DNA of 64,000 nucleotides, taken from the NCBI GenBank assembly GCA_003327435.1, contig QOQV01000008.1, positions 1-64,000 of the forward strand. Direction: 5' to 3'. Every line of letters begins with the position of its first letter. Position 1 is the first letter of the stretch. The DNA comes from Ignavibacteriota bacterium. GTDB lineage: Bacteria > Bacteroidota > Ignavibacteria > UBA10030 > BY39. A program made the position numbers and the translations under genes. This document shows positions 51,845 to 59,711 of this stretch, one piece after another. The notes below the pieces were generated by a model. It made no database searches. It was not told the origin of the DNA and saw nothing but the letters and a program-made list of their open reading frames with translations.

Positions 51845-51862
51845 TATTTGCATAAACGAATA
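51845..51862. promoter_or_regulatory. ArsR-type operator-like dyad 1
   Basis: TATTTG-CATAAA-CGAATA is an imperfect inverted repeat (5 of 6 arm positions) 13 bases before the first Cys-Cys gene. It matches in arm sequence and six-base spacing the perfect dyad at 52300-52319 before the paralogous gene. Likely bound by the ArsR protein encoded at 56208, by inference. Confidence 0.5.
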
Positions 51863-51875
51863 ATGTTATTATATT

Positions 51876-52094
51876 ATGCGTGCTCGTTGCTGTTCAAATC
51901 CAATTACTCAATTAATAAAGATAAATGGTATCGAGACGGATATCATTGGATTGAAAGGATTTCCTGAAGAAATTTATGATTTAAACGTGGAGAAAATTGA
52001 TCTTACCGCAAATGCAAGTTTGGTTGCATTTGAGAAAACGATTGAAGGGAAGGTCTTAGCAACTGCGAAGATAACTGGAACATACGAAATATAG
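51876..52094 (+). CDS. Small Cys-Cys protein, paralogue of the next gene
   Basis: A 72-residue protein: MRARCCSNPITQLIKINGIE near the start, then a GLKGFPEEIYDLN segment and a beta-rich end. A vicinal cysteine pair (Cys5-Cys6) is the only cysteine content. The N-terminal half aligns with the 80-residue protein at 52348 (CC-x-x-P ... IKI-x-G-x-E ... GL). A vicinal cysteine pair in an arsenic island suggests binding of trivalent arsenic or another thiophilic metal, but this is inference. No clear ribosome site is seen at the ATG; GTG or TTG starts are not better. I do not recognise a named family. Confidence 0.65.
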   Translation: MRARCCSNPITQLIKINGIETDIIGLKGFPEEIYDLNVEKIDLTANASLVAFEKTIEGKVLATAKITGTYEI

Positions 52095-52299
52095 GAGTTG
52101 ATTTTATAAAGAAAAAATATTGAAAGAATAATATCCAATTCTTTTGCGATGGTCATTTAATAACTACAGAAAACACAGAGATATGGAGAGAATTACTAAA
52201 TAAATTTTCTTTGCGTTTAGTTCTATTCCAACGCAATACATAAATAGATCGACAAAAGTAATAATTATTTCACTATTGCCTTTTTCTTAAAAAATTACT

Positions 52300-52319
52300 A
52301 TATTCGTCTATGCGAATAT
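52300..52319. promoter_or_regulatory. ArsR-type operator-like dyad 2
   Basis: ATATTCG-TCTATG-CGAATAT is a perfect seven-base inverted repeat with a six-base spacer, 28 bases before the Cys-Cys gene at 52348. The form is typical of ArsR/SmtB-family operators. The related dyad at 51845 strengthens the case. Confidence 0.6.
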
Positions 52320-52347
52320 CGTTATTAACAAAATTGGAGCAATATTT

Positions 52348-52590
52348 ATGGGTAACTGCTGTGCAAAACCTCTTTTCAAGATAATTAAAATTGGTGGCGT
52401 TGAAGTCGGCATCAAAGGATTAGATCAAGCTTTTGATGAAGTTCGCGCAACCAATGAACAGGATCCAGACAAAATCAAAGAGTTGTTGCTCGCTAAAATT
52501 AAAGAATATGGAAATTATGTCTCCCAAAGCCGAGAGAGCGTTTATAAAGAAGACCTTTTTCGTGAATATGTAAAAAGATCTAATTCCTAA
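52348..52590 (+). CDS. Small Cys-Cys protein heading the arsenic island
   Basis: An 80-residue protein with a GGAGC ribosome site. It begins MGNCCAKPLFKIIKIGGVEV followed by GIKGLDQAFDEVRA, then a helical, charged C-terminal half ending YKEDLFREYVKR. The vicinal Cys4-Cys5 and the short beta-turn-beta start are shared with the 72-residue paralogue upstream. It precedes the ArsP-like permease by 124 bp and has an operator-like dyad in front. A role as a metalloid-binding carrier or sensor is inferred from context; I do not know a characterised homologue. Confidence 0.72.
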   Translation: MGNCCAKPLFKIIKIGGVEVGIKGLDQAFDEVRATNEQDPDKIKELLLAKIKEYGNYVSQSRESVYKEDLFREYVKRSNS

Positions 52591-52714: not shown

Positions 52715-54013
52715 ATGGATTTAAAAAAAGAATGGAAGCCACTGCTTTTGATAATAGGAGTTTTCTTATTTAGTTTTTATTTACCGGTTGGCACACCGCG
52801 CTTCGACAATGCTGTCACCGAATCTTTGCAACTTGTGAAATGGTATGCACAAGAGCACGTTATACTTTGTTTAATCCCTGCTTTTTTTATCGCAGGTGCG
52901 ATTGCAGTATTTGTGAGTCAAGCTTCTGTAATGAAATATTTGGGCTCGAGAGCAAATAAATTTCTTTCGTATAGTGTTGCTTCGGTTTCAGGAACAATTT
53001 TGGCAGTTTGTTCTTGCACTGTTCTTCCGCTGTTTGCAGGTATTTACCAAATGGGTGCGGGACTCGGACCTGCAACTGCATTTTTGTATTCAGGTCCAGC
53101 AATTAATGTGCTTGCAATAGTGCTTACTGCTCGCGTACTCGGACTTGAATTAGGTGTTGCACGTGCTGTTGGTGCTGTTGTGTTTAGTGTAGTTGTCGGG
53201 TTGCTTACGCACTTCATATTTCGTAAAGAAGAAACAGAAAAAGCCAACGCTCAAATGAATTTACCTGAACCAATTGTCCACCGACCACTATGGCAAAATA
53301 TAATTTACTTTGCCTCGATGATAGGAATTCTCGTTTTTGCAAATTGGGGTAAATCTAATGATACATCAAGTTTTTGGTTTGCTATTTATTCATTTAAATG
53401 GCAAATAACAAGTGCGTTTTCTATTCTCTTTGGTGTAGTATTGTTTTTATGGTTTGGATTGGAATGGTGGAAAATAACTCTTACAGCTATTGCTGTAATC
53501 ATCGGAGCAATCTTATTTCCGCACGAGCCGATGTTGCCTTTTGCAGTTGGAGCAATCGGACTCTCGATAATTACAAGTACACACAAGGGTGAAACGAGAG
53601 AATGGTTTAATCAAACATGGGGTTTTGCAAAGCAGATTCTTCCTCTTCTATTAGGTGGAATTCTTGTTGCTGGTTTATTATTGGGTCGACCTGGACACGA
53701 GGGGATAATTCCTTCCGAGTGGGTCGCAAGTGCGGTGGGTGGAAATTCACTCTGGGCAAACCTTTTTGCTTCCATCGCAGGTGCGTTTATGTACTTCGCT
53801 ACACTCACCGAAATTCCAATTTTACAAGGATTGCTCGGAAGTGGAATGGGCAAAGGTCCTGCTCTTACATTGCTTCTTGCAGGTCCTGCACTATCACTAC
53901 CAAGTATGTTAGTATTGAATAAGATTATTGGTTTTAAGAAAACTATAGTTTATGTTGTACTTGTAATTATCATTGCAACAATAACAGGAATAATTTATGG
54001 TGCCATTTATTAA
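52715..54013 (+). CDS. ArsP-like permease (UPF0718/DUF318)
   Basis: A 432-residue polytopic protein, about ten transmembrane helices, of the DUF318 permease family that includes ArsP. The conserved cysteine segment VCSCTVLPLFAGIYQMGAGL is near residue 98 and the matching half-repeat FATLTEIPILQGLLGSGMGK near 365, as expected of the internal duplication. ArsP exports trivalent organoarsenicals; here the substrate is inferred from the neighbouring arsenic genes. A good ribosome site (GAAGGATAATAA) precedes the ATG. Its end overlaps the next gene by 17 bases. Confidence 0.85.
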   Translation: MDLKKEWKPLLLIIGVFLFSFYLPVGTPRFDNAVTESLQLVKWYAQEHVILCLIPAFFIAGAIAVFVSQASVMKYLGSRANKFLSYSVASVSGTILAVCSCTVLPLFAGIYQMGAGLGPATAFLYSGPAINVLAIVLTARVLGLELGVARAVGAVVFSVVVGLLTHFIFRKEETEKANAQMNLPEPIVHRPLWQNIIYFASMIGILVFANWGKSNDTSSFWFAIYSFKWQITSAFSILFGVVLFLWFGLEWWKITLTAIAVIIGAILFPHEPMLPFAVGAIGLSIITSTHKGETREWFNQTWGFAKQILPLLLGGILVAGLLLGRPGHEGIIPSEWVASAVGGNSLWANLFASIAGAFMYFATLTEIPILQGLLGSGMGKGPALTLLLAGPALSLPSMLVLNKIIGFKKTIVYVVLVIIIATITGIIYGAIY

Positions 54014-54392
54014 ACAGAGTTTAATTTTTATTTTAGTATTATCTGTTTTTACAGTAGTTACTCTTGCTCAAAAGAAAGTAACTCCGAAAATCACATTTAT
54101 TGAACTTGGTTCGGTTAGATGCATTCCTTGTCAAAAAATGCAACCGATCATGAAATCAATTGAAGAGAAGTATGGTAATCAAATTAAAGTGATTTTCTAT
54201 GATGTTTGGAAACAAGAAGAAAGGCATTATGCCGAACAATACAAGATTAAAGTAATACCTACCCAAGTATTTTTAGATTCGAAAGGTAACGAGATAATGA
54301 GACACGAGGGATTTTTCCCCGAAGAGGAAATTGACAAGTTTTTATTATCGAAAGGATTAAAAATTAAAAAAAGTGAAAGGAAAACTAAATGA
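53997..54392 (+). CDS. Exported thioredoxin-fold protein (CIPC)
   Basis: A 131-residue protein with an N-terminal signal or anchor helix (SLIFILVLSVFTVVTLA) and a thioredoxin fold with active site CIPC in LGSVRCIPCQKMQPIM near 34-49, then VIPTQVFLDSKGNE containing the cis-proline. It probably acts as an envelope-side thiol reductant. It overlaps the permease end by 17 bases and the next small thioredoxin by four, so it belongs to the same transcript. The link with arsenic thiol chemistry is by context. Confidence 0.88.
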   Translation: MVPFIKQSLIFILVLSVFTVVTLAQKKVTPKITFIELGSVRCIPCQKMQPIMKSIEEKYGNQIKVIFYDVWKQEERHYAEQYKIKVIPTQVFLDSKGNEIMRHEGFFPEEEIDKFLLSKGLKIKKSERKTK

Positions 54393-54622
54393 AAAAACTA
54401 CAAATCTTAGGAACAGGTTGCCCAAAATGTAAGAAGCTTACAGAGCTTACAGAAGAAGCAGCTAAATCACTCGGTATAGAATATCAATTGGAAAAGGTTG
54501 AAGACATCAAACAAATAATTTCATTCGGTGTAATGATGACACCAGCACTCGTGGTGGATGGAGAGGTGAAGGTATCTGGTCGCGTTCCTAGTGTTGACGA
54601 GATTAAAAAATTAATTGCATAA
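54389..54622 (+). CDS. Small thioredoxin-like redox protein (CPKC)
   Basis: A 77-residue protein of the small archaeal-type thioredoxin/glutaredoxin family (TM0996/MTH895 type). The active site CPKC is in ILGTGCPKCKKLTELTEEAA, followed by MMTPALVVDGEVKVSGRVPS with the cis-proline. It lacks a signal, so it acts in the cytoplasm. Genes of this type are frequent in ars operons. A nonsense-mutated relative lies at 58383. It overlaps the previous gene by four bases. Confidence 0.9.
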   Translation: MKKLQILGTGCPKCKKLTELTEEAAKSLGIEYQLEKVEDIKQIISFGVMMTPALVVDGEVKVSGRVPSVDEIKKLIA

Positions 54623-54638: not shown

Positions 54639-55022
54639 ATGTCAGACCAAAGCAACGGGTGTATATGCCAGGCAGCACCAAAATTGATATTTCCATGTTC
54701 CGGTGCGGCTGATGTCGGTGAATTAACAGACCGTGCTGCACGAAGACTTACACGCGAAGGAATTGCGCGAATGTATTGTTTAGCTGGAATCGGAGGTAGA
54801 GTAGATGATATTCTTGAATCAACGAAAACTGCATCAACAATACTTGTAATTGATGGATGCCCCGCAGACTGCGCTAGAAGAACACTCGAATCAGCAAATT
54901 TGAATTCATTTAAACATCTACGTCTCACTGATATAGGATTGGAAAAAGGAAAATCTCCCGCTATAGGTGAAAGAATTGAGCTCGTTATTTCTAAATGTAA
55001 AGAACTTCTTCAAGCACAATAA
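54639..55022 (+). CDS. DGC-domain putative zinc-binding protein
   Basis: A 127-residue protein from the ATG at 54639, which has GAGAGGAGCAA ahead; an upstream in-frame start at 54615 would overlap the previous gene. Cysteines occur in NGCICQAAPKLIFPCSGAAD and in IDGCPADCARRTLE, the pattern of the DGC family of putative zinc-binding proteins. Such proteins accompany organoarsenical or aromatic-arsenical genes in other bacteria, but the function is not established. It is followed 13 bases later by the ArsF-like gene. Confidence 0.85.
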   Translation: MSDQSNGCICQAAPKLIFPCSGAADVGELTDRAARRLTREGIARMYCLAGIGGRVDDILESTKTASTILVIDGCPADCARRTLESANLNSFKHLRLTDIGLEKGKSPAIGERIELVISKCKELLQAQ

Positions 55023-55035
55023 AAATGTATTATTC

Positions 55036-55497
55036 ATGAAAATTAAAAGTATATTAACTTTTCTACTTCTTTTATTTGTTGCTACGAGTGTCGGTTATCT
55101 TATAATACAAGAAGTAAATTATAACTCGGGTATTCAGGCTGAAAATAGTATTACTTGTACAAAATATATTGTTTATTATTTTCACCGCACGATGCGATGT
55201 CCAACCTGTATAGATATTGAAAATTTCACAGATGAAGCAATAAAAACAGGTTTCACAGATGATTTGAAATCGAAACAATTGGAGTGGCGAGTTGTAAACA
55301 TCGAAGATAAAGGTAATGAACATTTTGAAAATGATTATCAACTATATGCTCAATCTGTTATTTTGGTGGAAATTAAAGATGGTAAACAAGTAAGATGGAA
55401 GAATCTTAAACAAATCTGGGATATTGTTGGAAATAAAGAAGGGTTCATAAATTATATTCAGGAAGAAATTAGATCGTTTATGGGGGGAGAATCTTAA
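55036..55497 (+). CDS. ArsF-like thiol protein
   Basis: A 153-residue protein from the ATG at 55036; the longer frame from 54967 would overlap the previous gene by 56 bases. A transmembrane or signal helix (SILTFLLLLFVATSVGYLII) precedes a thioredoxin-like domain with the motif FHRTMRCPTCIDIENFTDEA near 54-73. This HRT-x-RC-x-TC pattern is characteristic of proteins annotated as nitrophenyl compound nitroreductase subunit ArsF. With ArsE and ArsG in Shewanella, ArsF takes part in reducing nitroaromatic arsenicals. Here the assignment rests on motif and on the ArsG-like gene that follows with a one-base overlap. Confidence 0.78.
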   Translation: MKIKSILTFLLLLFVATSVGYLIIQEVNYNSGIQAENSITCTKYIVYYFHRTMRCPTCIDIENFTDEAIKTGFTDDLKSKQLEWRVVNIEDKGNEHFENDYQLYAQSVILVEIKDGKQVRWKNLKQIWDIVGNKEGFINYIQEEIRSFMGGES

Positions 55498-56189
55498 TGG
55501 ATACAATTCTCATTAGCGGTATCTCGGCATTATGGCTTGGCATAATGACAAGCATCAGTCCTTGTCCACTTGCAACTAATATTGCTGCGATTTCATTCAT
55601 TGGAAAACGTTTCAGCAGTCCAAGAATGGTGACGATTACGGGATTAGTTTATACATTGGGTAGAATGATTGCTTACATGCTTCTCAGTGTAATAGTCGTT
55701 GAGAGTCTATTAACCATTCCCAGTGTTTCAAATTTTTTACAGAAGTACATGAACAGAATTTTAGGACCGATTTTAATAATTGTTGGAATGTCATTACTTG
55801 AACTGATTCGATTTTCCACATCTTCGATAAGTGTAAGTGAAAATCTACAAAAGCGAGTGATAAGTTTTGGAATAATTGGAGCTGGGTTATTAGGAATTAT
55901 TTTTGCCCTTTCTTTTTGTCCAATCTCTGCTGCCTTATTCTTCGGAAGTCTTATACCACTTGCTATGCAGCAACAGTCTGTTGTACTTCTTCCGTTTTTA
56001 TATGGGATTGGAACTGCAATTCCAGTTCTAATTTTTGCTATGTTGCTTTCGATTAGCTCTACGCTTGTTAGTAAAACTTTTAGTAAACTTACTCAATTTG
56101 AATTGTGGACAAGAAGGATAACGGGAGTAGTTTTTATTTTAGTGGGAATTTATTACTGTTTAGTTTATATTTTCAGAATATTAACTTAA
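55497..56189 (+). CDS. ArsG-like aromatic arsenical efflux permease (CcdA/DsbD fold)
   Basis: A 230-residue membrane protein with six transmembrane helices of the LysE/DsbD-CcdA type. Near the start LGIMTSISPCPLATNIAAIS holds the first conserved cysteine, and FALSFCPISAALFFGSLIPL the second, near residue 142. Proteins of this exact form, following an ArsF-like gene, are annotated as aromatic aminobenzyl-arsenical efflux ArsG. A DsbD-like electron-transfer role is the alternative. It starts at the last base of the ArsF-like gene and is 18 bases before arsR. Confidence 0.8.
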   Translation: MDTILISGISALWLGIMTSISPCPLATNIAAISFIGKRFSSPRMVTITGLVYTLGRMIAYMLLSVIVVESLLTIPSVSNFLQKYMNRILGPILIIVGMSLLELIRFSTSSISVSENLQKRVISFGIIGAGLLGIIFALSFCPISAALFFGSLIPLAMQQQSVVLLPFLYGIGTAIPVLIFAMLLSISSTLVSKTFSKLTQFELWTRRITGVVFILVGIYYCLVYIFRILT

Positions 56190-56207: not shown

Positions 56208-56603
56208 ATGGTTGAACTTGCAAATCTTTTTAAGGCATTGAGTGATGAATCACGTTTGAGGATTTTAAACCTTCTTGTGCATTCTAGTGAATTGTGTGTA
56301 TGTGACATCCAAAGGATACTTGGTTTTTCACAACCAAAGGTCTCTCGGCATCTTACTTATCTCAAAAATGTTGGATTGGTTAAGAATGAACGGAAGGGAA
56401 TGTGGGTGATATACTCGCTTGCAAATATTGAAGATGAAACAACCGAACGATTGATGAAGGAATTAAAGGACATTTTCGACTTGAATAAAGAATTAAAAAA
56501 TGATTTAGTGGAATTAAATAAAGCTATTAAACTCGGGATGTGCACAACATATTGTGTAATTTATCCTGAGAAGAAATTTAAAGGTGTCCGAAGTAAAAAG
56601 TAA
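56208..56603 (+). CDS. arsR: ArsR-family metalloregulatory repressor
   Basis: A 131-residue winged-helix repressor. It shows ELANLFKALSDESRLRILNL near the start, the metalloid-binding motif ELCVCDI (Cys30 and Cys32) in the first DNA-contact helix, and FSQPKVSRHLTYLKNVGLVK as the recognition helix. Binding of As(III) or Sb(III) to the cysteines releases DNA. Operator-like dyads lie at 51845 and 52300. A carboxyl-terminal extension of about 35 residues follows the core. It is the last gene before the IS200-like element. Confidence 0.93.
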   Translation: MVELANLFKALSDESRLRILNLLVHSSELCVCDIQRILGFSQPKVSRHLTYLKNVGLVKNERKGMWVIYSLANIEDETTERLMKELKDIFDLNKELKNDLVELNKAIKLGMCTTYCVIYPEKKFKGVRSKK

Positions 56604-56793: not shown

Positions 56794-57267
56794 ATGGCTA
56801 ACACGTATACAAAAATTTACATTCACGTTGTTTTTGCAGTAAAAGGTCGAAATAGTTGGATCAAAAAAGAATTTAAAGAGCGATTGCATAAATATATAGC
56901 GGGTATTATAAAAAATGAAGACCAAAAATTGATTGCAATAAATAGTATGCCCGACCATCTTCATATGCTTATTGGCATGAAACCAGATGTAGCTTTATCT
57001 GATTTAATTAGAATTATAAAATCAAACTCATCGAAATTCATAAATGAACAGAAATTTACGCATGGTAAATTCAATTGGCAGGAAGGGTTTGGTGGGTTTT
57101 CTTATTCACATTCTCAATTAGACATAGTAATACGATATATTCAGAATCAGGAGAAACATCATTCAAGGAAAACATTTAGAGAAGAATATCTGGAAATACT
57201 TAAAAAGTATGCTGTTGATTATGATAATAAATACCTATTTGAATGGATTGAAGATTTGAACGAATGA
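56794..57267 (+). mobile_element. IS200-like/RAYT Y1 transposase gene
   Basis: A 157-residue HUH transposase of the IS200/IS605 TnpA, REP-associated family. The HUH motif is in NSMPDHLHMLIGMKPDVALS (residues about 50-69), and a conserved tyrosine lies in GGFSYSHSQLDIVIRYIQNQ near 108-127. It is the form widely spread in Bacteroidota. It acts on single-stranded DNA and hairpins and could mobilise the REP-like palindromes beside it. It lies between arsR and arsC, splitting the island, and is flanked by 118-bp direct repeats. The reading frame is intact. Confidence 0.9.
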
Positions 57268-57444: not shown

Positions 57445-57882
57445 ATGAATCAAAAAAATAAAATTCTTATTCTTTGCACAGGTAATTCATGCCGCAGCCA
57501 GATGGCTGAAGGATTTCTAAAATCATTTGATAATAATTTAGAAGTGTTTTCTGCAGGAACTAAACCAGCTGAAAAAGTGAATCCAATAGCTGTTCAAGTC
57601 ATGAAAGAAGTTGGAATAGATATATCAAAAAATTACCCCAAAGTGGTTGATCAATTTCTTAATGAATCTTTTGATTATGTAATAACAGTTTGTGACAATG
57701 CGAAAGAAGCTTGTCCGGTTTTTATTGGTAAAGTTGGAAGACAATTGCACATTGGATTTGAAGATCCTGCAGATGCAACAGGAACTGAAGAAGAAATTCT
57801 TTCAGTATTTAGGAAAGTAAGAGATGAAATAAAAAGAGAATTTGAAAAATTATTAACGCAGATAAATCTTAAACGAGTTTAA
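57445..57882 (+). CDS. arsC: Arsenate reductase ArsC, thioredoxin-coupled type
   Basis: A 145-residue protein of the low-molecular-weight tyrosine phosphatase fold. The active-site loop is LCTGNSCRSQMAEGFL with nucleophile Cys11 and Cys16. The redox pair Cys83 and Cys90 lies in TVCDNAKEACPVF. This spacing equals that of the S. aureus pI258 enzyme (Cys10, Cys82, Cys89), whose last disulfide is reduced by thioredoxin. It converts arsenate to arsenite for efflux by Acr3. It lies right after the IS200-like element; its promoter may be affected by the inserted repeats. Confidence 0.96.
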   Translation: MNQKNKILILCTGNSCRSQMAEGFLKSFDNNLEVFSAGTKPAEKVNPIAVQVMKEVGIDISKNYPKVVDQFLNESFDYVITVCDNAKEACPVFIGKVGRQLHIGFEDPADATGTEEEILSVFRKVRDEIKREFEKLLTQINLKRV

Positions 57883-57952
57883 TTTCCTCAATGCTCAATA
57901 AACAATATTCAAAATTCAATTTACAATTATTTATAAACTTTCTTAGACTAAA

Positions 57953-58327
57953 ATGATGAAACAAAAAAAATATGATCTTGAAGACAGATTTGTTAATTAT
58001 ACCTGTTTAATGATAGATATTGTAGAAAGTCTACCTAATACAAGAGCAGCTAATTACATCGCTGGTCAGCTGATTAAATCCTGTCATTCTCCCACTTTTA
58101 ACTATGGTGAAGCTCAGGCTGCCGAATTAAGAAATGATTTTATTCACAAGATGGGAATAATTCTTAAAGAGTTGAAAGAATGTCGTACCGCATTAAAGAT
58201 TATAAAAAGAAAAGAGATGATAAAGTCATTAGAAAAACTTGATGAAGCATATAAAGAAACAGAAGAATTAATTTCAATTATAGGTAAAAGCATTTCTACT
58301 GCAAAAAGTCATAATAAATCTACTTGA
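57953..58327 (+). CDS. Four-helix-bundle protein (S23/IVP family)
   Basis: A 124-residue all-helical protein of the family first named for ORFs in 23S rRNA intervening sequences. It shows DLEDRFVNYTCLMIDIVESL near the start, ANYIAGQLIKSCHSPTFNYG near 33, and ELRNDFIHKMGIILKELKEC near 62. The family forms a pentameric four-helix bundle of unknown function and is scattered across Bacteroidota-like genomes, often next to unrelated genes. Here it is simply an insert between arsC and the broken thioredoxin. A function in arsenic resistance is not suggested by its sequence. Confidence 0.88.
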   Translation: MMKQKKYDLEDRFVNYTCLMIDIVESLPNTRAANYIAGQLIKSCHSPTFNYGEAQAAELRNDFIHKMGIILKELKECRTALKIIKRKEMIKSLEKLDEAYKETEELISIIGKSISTAKSHNKST

Positions 58328-58382
58328 AGATTGAATATTGATAATTGATTGCTGAAAATTTTTTAATAAAAATGGAGGAAAT

Positions 58383-58631
58383 ATGTTAGACATTAAAGTT
58401 CTTGGTCCAGGTTGTGCAAATTGCATTAAGCTGGAAAATCTTGTAAAGGAAGTTGTATCTGAAAACAATCTTCCAGCTAATATTTAGAAGATAACTGACA
58501 AAGAAAAATTTATGGATTACGGTGTTATGATTACACCGGGACTGGTGGTCAATGGAAAAGTATTAGTGATGGGTAAAATTCCCACTAAATCAACTTTAGA
58601 GCATTGGTTGAAAGACAATTTAAACAAGTAA
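58383..58631 (+). pseudogene. Thioredoxin-like gene with in-frame amber codon
   Basis: A GGAGGAAAT ribosome site precedes ATG 58383. The frame runs 82 codons with the motif LGPGCANCIKLENLVKEVVS (active site CANC), then hits TAG at 58485-58487 (codon 35). It continues in frame as KITDKEKFMDYGVMITPGLV and ends at TAA 58629. It is a relative of the CPKC protein at 54389. The stop replaces what is probably GAG or another glutamate-like codon by a single change. It is best called a recent nonsense pseudogene; a sequencing error or suppression cannot be excluded. Confidence 0.85.
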
Positions 58632-58658
58632 TAAATAAATCATCTGAAGGGTAAATAA

Positions 58659-59711
58659 ATGGAATCCTCTGTTTCAAAAAAATTATCATTCTTTGATCGT
58701 TATTTAACACTGTGGATTTTTATCACAATGTTCATAGGTGTGGCAGCCGGATCAGTTTTTCCTGGTATTGCTGGTTTCTGGGACTCACTTAGCGTAGGCA
58801 CTACAAACATCCCAATTGCTATTGGACTAATTTTAATGATGTACCCACCTTTGGCAAAAGTTAGATATGAAGAGCTCCCAACCGTTTTTAAAAACCTAAA
58901 ACTTCTCGGTTTATCTTTAACGCAAAATTGGATTGTTGGACCGCTGGTTATGTTTATATTGGCTATTATTCTTCTACCGGATAAACCCGAGATGATGATT
59001 GGCGTAATACTTGTAGGATTAGCACGATGTATAGCAATGGTTTTGGTCTGGAACGACTTAGCAAAAGGCGATTCAGAGTTAGCCGCTGGGTTAGTTGCAT
59101 TCAACGCAATATTTCAGGTACTTTTCTATTCAGTATACGCTTATATTTTCATAACGATTCTTCCACCAGTATTTGGATTGAGCGGGGCATTAGTTGAAGT
59201 TTCAATTGGAGAAATAGCAATAACCGTTTTAATATATCTCGGCATTCCATTCTTCGGTGGATTGCTTACAAGGACATTCATGATAAAATGGAAAGATAAA
59301 CAGTGGTACCATACAAATTTCATCCCAAAGATTTCACCGCTTACACCGATTGCACTTCTGTTTACAATTTTTGTGATGTTTTCACTCAAAGGTGAAAAAA
59401 TAGTTGAGCTACCATTGGATGTTATCCGGGTGGCGATTCCTTACACAATCTATTTTGCATTTATGTTCTTTATAACATTCTTCATTGCAAAACGAATGGG
59501 TGCATCATACGAAAAATCAACGACGATGGCTTTCACAGCAGGAAGTAACGACTTTGAATTGGCAATTGCTGTTGCAGTTGCTGTTTTTGGAATAAATTCA
59601 CAGGTAGCATTTGCCACAGTAATTGGTCCTTTGGTCGAAGTTCCAGTTTTAATTTCACTTGTTAATGTAGCATTATGGTTTAAGAAAAAATATTTTAATG
59701 ATGCAAAATGA
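58659..59711 (+). CDS. acr3: Arsenite efflux permease Acr3
   Basis: A 350-residue protein with ten predicted transmembrane helices of the ACR3 (BART) family. Key stretches are [20 protein letters not shown] near the start, [20 protein letters not shown] near 87, and [20 protein letters not shown] near 120, whose Cys124 corresponds to the essential cysteine of Acr3. [20 protein letters not shown] is near 295 and [15 protein letters not shown] near 325 carries the essential glutamate. It exports arsenite produced by ArsC. The start has GAAGGGTAAATAA ahead. Confidence 0.95.

Follow-up and report, generated by a model that had tools for sequence, protein, structure and literature searches.

To our knowledge, arsenic metallochaperones have been described essentially in the form of ArsD acting with the ArsA pump. 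ArsD illustrates that the N-terminal vicinal cysteine pair of a small ars protein can act as an arsenite carrier (PMC4562236, PMC6205960). The passage of PMC4562236 that cites Lin et al. (2007) places its arsenic site at Cys12, Cys13, and Cys18. On the efflux side, ArsP of Campylobacter is an exporter of trivalent organoarsenicals (PMC6205960). In ArsP/DUF318-MTH895 operons, the permease gene and a small thioredoxin gene are adjacent, often together with arsR, and such a pair is also present on a Leptolinea plasmid.

The window, i.e., the whole stretch of 64,000 nucleotides of Ignavibacteriota DNA that was analyzed, contained an operon with this pair of genes and, unlike most operons of the type, an extra mini-protein with a vicinal cysteine pair (CC; Table 1). 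A preliminary description had placed two paralogous short proteins with a Cys-Cys near the N-terminus at the head of the arsenic island, each behind a dyad with TATTyG/CGAATA-type arms and a six-base spacer. Both ORFs were recovered, with the cysteine pair at residues 5–6 in P1 and 4–5 in P2, and a pattern search returned both dyads as perfect matches to TATTYG-N6-CRAATA (51845–51862 and 52301–52318). The operon has the order P2-arsP-thioredoxin-arsE-DGC-arsF-arsG-arsR, with short or overlapping junctions except for a gap of 124 bp between P2 and arsP, in which no terminator was found. Its permease passed the PF03773 profile with 236 bits against a cut-off of 32.3. In NCBIfam, the permease stayed below the cut-offs for Cu/Zn SO_0444, its best match, and for SaoE, and its sequence thus does not specify what it transports. 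Further downstream, a protein of the 23S rRNA intervening-sequence (four-helix) type (57953–58327; PF05635) was encoded between arsC and acr3.

Table 1. Features of the CC mini-protein region and the adjoining ars operon (positions in the window).
Feature	Position	Strand	Remarks
Dyad 1, TATTTGcataaaCGAATA, putative degenerate ArsR-type operator	51845..51862		13 bp 5' of P1; matrix score 13.2
P1, 72 aa, chimeric ORF, probable remnant	51876..52094	+	CC-family N-terminus + PEBP/YbhB tail
CC-family part of P1, residues 1–27	51876..51956	+	Match to G395 L029:4802-5131
PEBP/YbhB tail of P1, residues 33–72	51972..52091	+	Match to PEBP of G397/G398
Promoter-like TTGCCT-17-TATATT	52276..52304	+	Consensus match only
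Dyad 2, ATATTCGtctatgCGAATAT, probable canonical ArsR operator of the P2 operon	52300..52319		34.4 bits, best in the window
P2, 80 aa, intact CC mini-protein, first gene of the operon	52348..52590	+	Homologues in two genera; predicted fold
ArsP/DUF318-family permease, CSCTVLP motif	52715..54013	+	PF03773, E 5.6e-70
Thioredoxin-like protein, N-terminal hydrophobic stretch, probably exported	53997..54392	+	PF13098
ArsE/MTH895-family small thioredoxin	54389..54622	+	TIGR00412, over cut-off
DGC-domain protein	54639..55022	+	PF08859
ArsF-family protein	55036..55497	+	NF040494, over cut-off
ArsG-family transporter (DsbD_2/CcdA type)	55497..56189	+	NF040495, over cut-off
ArsR repressor, ELCVCDI arsenic-site motif	56208..56603	+	NF033788

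The pattern TATTYG-N6-CRAATA occurred at four sites in the 2.63 Mb genome, two of them at these ORFs, and its reversed control at none. Compared on opposite strands, the two dyads had 16 of 18 bases in common, spacer included (TATTTGCATAAACGAATA and TATTCGCATAGACGAATA for dyads 1 and 2, respectively). The stricter ATATTCG-N6-CGAATAT was found 25 times in 381 genomes of the class vs. five times for its reversed control. Leaving out the site in the window, 15 of the remaining 24 lay at promoters of arsR (14, including L067 and L074, where the arsR frame was recognized from the translation) or of arsC-acr3 (one). When an operator matrix was built from these 15 sites, dyad 2 not being among them, dyads 2 and 1 ranked first and second in the window (Table 1) and the next window site scored 3.0; the maxima in five sequences of the window's length generated as a Markov null were 3.1–7.0. 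These results strongly support the assignment of dyad 2 as a canonical ArsR operator. The TATATT hexamer of the promoter-like element overlaps dyad 2, so that the element ends within the dyad, which fits the expectation for repression.

Among the proteins of the genome, the ArsR encoded in the operon was the sole HTH_5 (ArsR-family) member found, and its recognition helix, QPKVSRHL, conforms to the Q-[PTA]-[KR]-[VI]-SRHL motif that it has in common with the ArsRs at TATTCG sites. Together with the occurrence of the same dyad at the arsR promoters of relatives, this argues in favor of the ArsR control proposed in the preliminary description. In the other genus, the helix reads QSNLSRHL and the arsR genes have ATATGAG-N6-CTCATAT dyads, located at the arsR start in L031:9642, L032:4303, and L036:3242, an apparent co-change of repressor and operator. 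Given the short or overlapping junctions and the lack of a detected terminator between P2 and arsP, ArsR is probably autoregulated from dyad 2. As in ArsR/SmtB systems, an imperfect inverted repeat lies over the promoter, a CVC-type ArsR is encoded in the operon, and autoregulation is expected; unlike in those systems, the operator is of the TATTCG-N6-CGAATA type seen in Ignavibacteria-like relatives and the repressor gene is last rather than first. One arsR behind a canonical dyad (L079:1173-1487) was seemingly truncated or frameshifted. No operator-like dyad of the TATTCG type was present upstream of arsC and acr3 (57445–59711), the window holding no further site above 3.0, and a small ORF that appeared transposase-like by sequence (56794–57267) was located between arsR and arsC. 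For these reasons, arsC and acr3 may be controlled separately from the P2 operon.

P2 contains the complete family core CCxKP ... GL ... GNY ... YK..EY and has no third cysteine. Homologues were found at eight loci in five genomes of two genera, namely in the sister species (G395), G414 (two), G471 (two), G455, and G441 (two, one cut by a contig end), and overall the CC family was present in six of the 98 genomes of the order. Eight family sequences had 18 invariant columns (CC, KP, I, G, GL, LL, GNY, E, Y, and EY), and no cysteine outside the pair was invariant. Evenly sampling 395 genomes of the phylum added no members and no homologues were found in plasmid and viral sequences, while of two contig scans the first returned none and the second only records from the same group; the search effectively covered Bacteroidota, and statements on the spread of the family hold within that group. 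There was no match for P2 in Pfam, NCBIfam, or PDB sequences, and the PHROGs search gave marginal matches only. The matches to Sel_put (E 0.001) and KCU-star were weak, concerned one family member each, and were not accepted as homology. The AlphaFold model of P2 (mean pLDDT 87.4) predicted a flexible N-terminus bearing the cysteines, a beta-hairpin (residues 10–15 and 18–23), and three helices (25–34, 40–53, and 60–79), and fold searches with this model gave no clear structural match. We found no report of a CC protein in ArsP operons in the literature. The conserved core and the gene neighborhoods described below support P2 as a member of a rare, undescribed family tied to ArsP/thioredoxin operons. 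A role as sensor, which had also been suggested, gains no support, given the lack of a DNA-binding domain match for these mini-proteins and the presence of the island's own ArsR.

In analogy to ArsD, P2 is small, has an N-terminal vicinal cysteine pair, and is encoded in an ars operon beside an efflux system. However, P2 did not match the ArsD profiles (PF06953 and NF033727), nor did P1 or any of the eight family members match ArsD, and it lacks a third conserved cysteine, so membership of the ArsD family was rejected. The predicted hairpin with three helices may also set it apart from the thioredoxin-like fold of ArsD, no arsA was seen among the ORFs of the island, and the partner of P2 is apparently the ArsP-type permease. 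Based on the analogy with the vicinal cysteines of ArsD and with organoarsenical export by ArsP, P2 would most likely be a cytosolic dithiol carrier or adaptor that is induced by arsenic and serves the permease. In the absence of arsenic, ArsR, the product of the operon's last gene (56208), would occupy dyad 2 over the −10 region and repress P2-arsP-thioredoxins-DGC-arsF-arsG-arsR, until trivalent arsenic bound to its CVC motif and released it. P2 would then be produced, and we infer that its flexible Cys-Cys would bind the trivalent arsenical and help present it to the permease, the pair being maintained in the reduced state by the co-encoded small thioredoxins. To this explanation as a whole, i.e., an ArsR-repressed operon with P2 as dithiol carrier or adaptor and P1 as a remnant, we assign a probability of roughly 0.4; the absence of a TATTCG-type dyad from the CC promoter of the sister species G395, the subthreshold NCBIfam matches of the permease, and the occurrence of the CC family with two permease subtypes but not at most ArsP loci of the order count against it. 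More tentatively, the CC mini-proteins may form a new family of carriers or adaptors for trivalent arsenicals that serves ArsP-type permeases, with no relation to ArsD in its sequence and probably none in its fold.

All eight homologous loci were ArsP-type permease/thioredoxin operons or contig-end pieces of such operons. Six had an ArsP-family permease no more than a few kilobases away; of the operon's genes, the two contig-end loci retained those for CcdA and thioredoxin (L033) or for CcdA (L035). The check proposed in the preliminary description, whether homologues keep company with ArsP, ArsR, and small thioredoxins, thus had a positive outcome. Gene order was CC, permease, and two MTH895 thioredoxins in G395, and arsR, MTH895 thioredoxin, permease, MTH895 thioredoxin, exported thioredoxin, CcdA, and CC in the second genus. 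Proteins combining a C_GCAxxG_C_C redox domain with a type IX secretion tail (PF09719 with PF18962) were encoded near CC operons at L029:2000-3046 and L032:4571-5758. Such neighborhoods could also point to P2 as a redox partner or substrate of the small thioredoxins in a transmembrane dithiol-disulfide relay (MTH895-type thioredoxin, CcdA/ArsG, and exported thioredoxin) that binds no metalloid, which we regard as rather unlikely. The homologous loci do contain MTH895-type thioredoxins, in most cases together with genes for an exported thioredoxin and a CcdA-like DsbD_TM protein, and L029, L032, and L036 have the C_GCAxxG_C_C redox protein nearby. However, in L031 and L029 CC adjoins the permease with no CcdA gene between them, so that the link to the permease seems tighter, and redox relays more typically rely on CxxC motifs than on neighboring cysteines.

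The genes arsC and acr3 followed CC in L030 and adjoined it in L034, where arsR and a probable arsM were close by. This adjacency at both loci argues against P2 serving the DUF318 permease as carrier or adaptor in the export of some other soft metal (Cu(I), Zn, Hg, or Sb) with only incidental control by arsenic, as do the CVC-motif ArsR governing the operon, its ArsE/F/G-type genes, and the arsC and acr3 just downstream. Although Cu/Zn exporters do exist among DUF318 permeases, and the subthreshold SO_0444 match was the best that the permease obtained in NCBIfam, we consider such a function improbable. We attribute a similarly low probability to P2 being no diffusing carrier but a small subunit of the permease with a regulatory or assembly role, its cysteines gating transport or sensing the arsenical. 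This would be consistent with the direct adjacency of CC and permease genes in G000, G395, and L031, with the occurrence of the family alongside two permease subtypes (CSCT and CSCS), and with the predicted fold of P2, which is well packed with an exposed and flexible N-terminus. On the other hand, ArsP was present in 52 of the 98 genomes of the order, including all six with CC, and most permease loci of the order lack CC. Judging from this distribution, CC is an optional accessory that is not essential for ArsP.

The designation of P1 and P2 as paralogous mini-proteins held for P2, an intact family member, but for P1 in residues 1–27 only, and the two were rejected as equivalent paralogues. 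These residues were identical to the G395 protein at 20 of 26 positions, while the tail (residues 33–71 in this comparison) was identical to the C-terminal end of the PEBP/YbhB proteins of G397/G398 at 21 of 39; in both comparisons the score was reached by none of 1000 shuffles, and neither half matched the partner of the other. The tail also gave weak matches to PF01161 and TIGR00481, at the C-termini of the profiles. On these alignments, P1 is a chimera of a CC-family N-terminus and a PEBP/YbhB end: its last 40 residues resemble PEBP/YbhB (PF01161), but the rest of that fold is absent and a CC-family N-terminus is joined on in its place. An origin of the tail from this genome's own PEBP gene was not supported (no significant DNA match and 17/39 identity). 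P1 covers only positions 1–35 of the CC-family profile, without the GNY and YK..EY core, and the DNA from mnmE to its start codon could be aligned with G395 at the same chromosomal place. The simplest history would be that a G395-like operon occupied the P1 locus and that an in-frame deletion later fused its first gene to a PEBP end. By this account, P1 and dyad 1 would be all that a truncation left of an older operon of this type, which the sister species still has intact. The newer operon containing P2 lies just downstream, and dyad 1 would be a relic or degraded operator. We infer that P1, probably a deletion remnant, is non-functional. It is very unlikely that P1 is a functional two-part protein with the PEBP tail in a new role. 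Its parts are in frame, the ORF stops at the natural PEBP end, and an operator-like dyad is retained upstream, but the family core and most of the PEBP fold are missing and no homologue with the same fusion was found in the 98 genomes of the order or the 395-genome sample of the phylum.

Overall, the regulatory part of the preliminary description is well supported, its two-paralogue part is wrong, and its carrier idea is plausible for P2 alone. The P1 result is a warning that a truncated chimera should not be taken for a second conserved protein, and the operator result offers a motif by which the ArsR regulon of these anaerobes, at the level of the class, can be tested. If true, a separate dithiol mini-protein tied to ArsP would suggest that organoarsenical efflux, too, makes use of a delivery protein.
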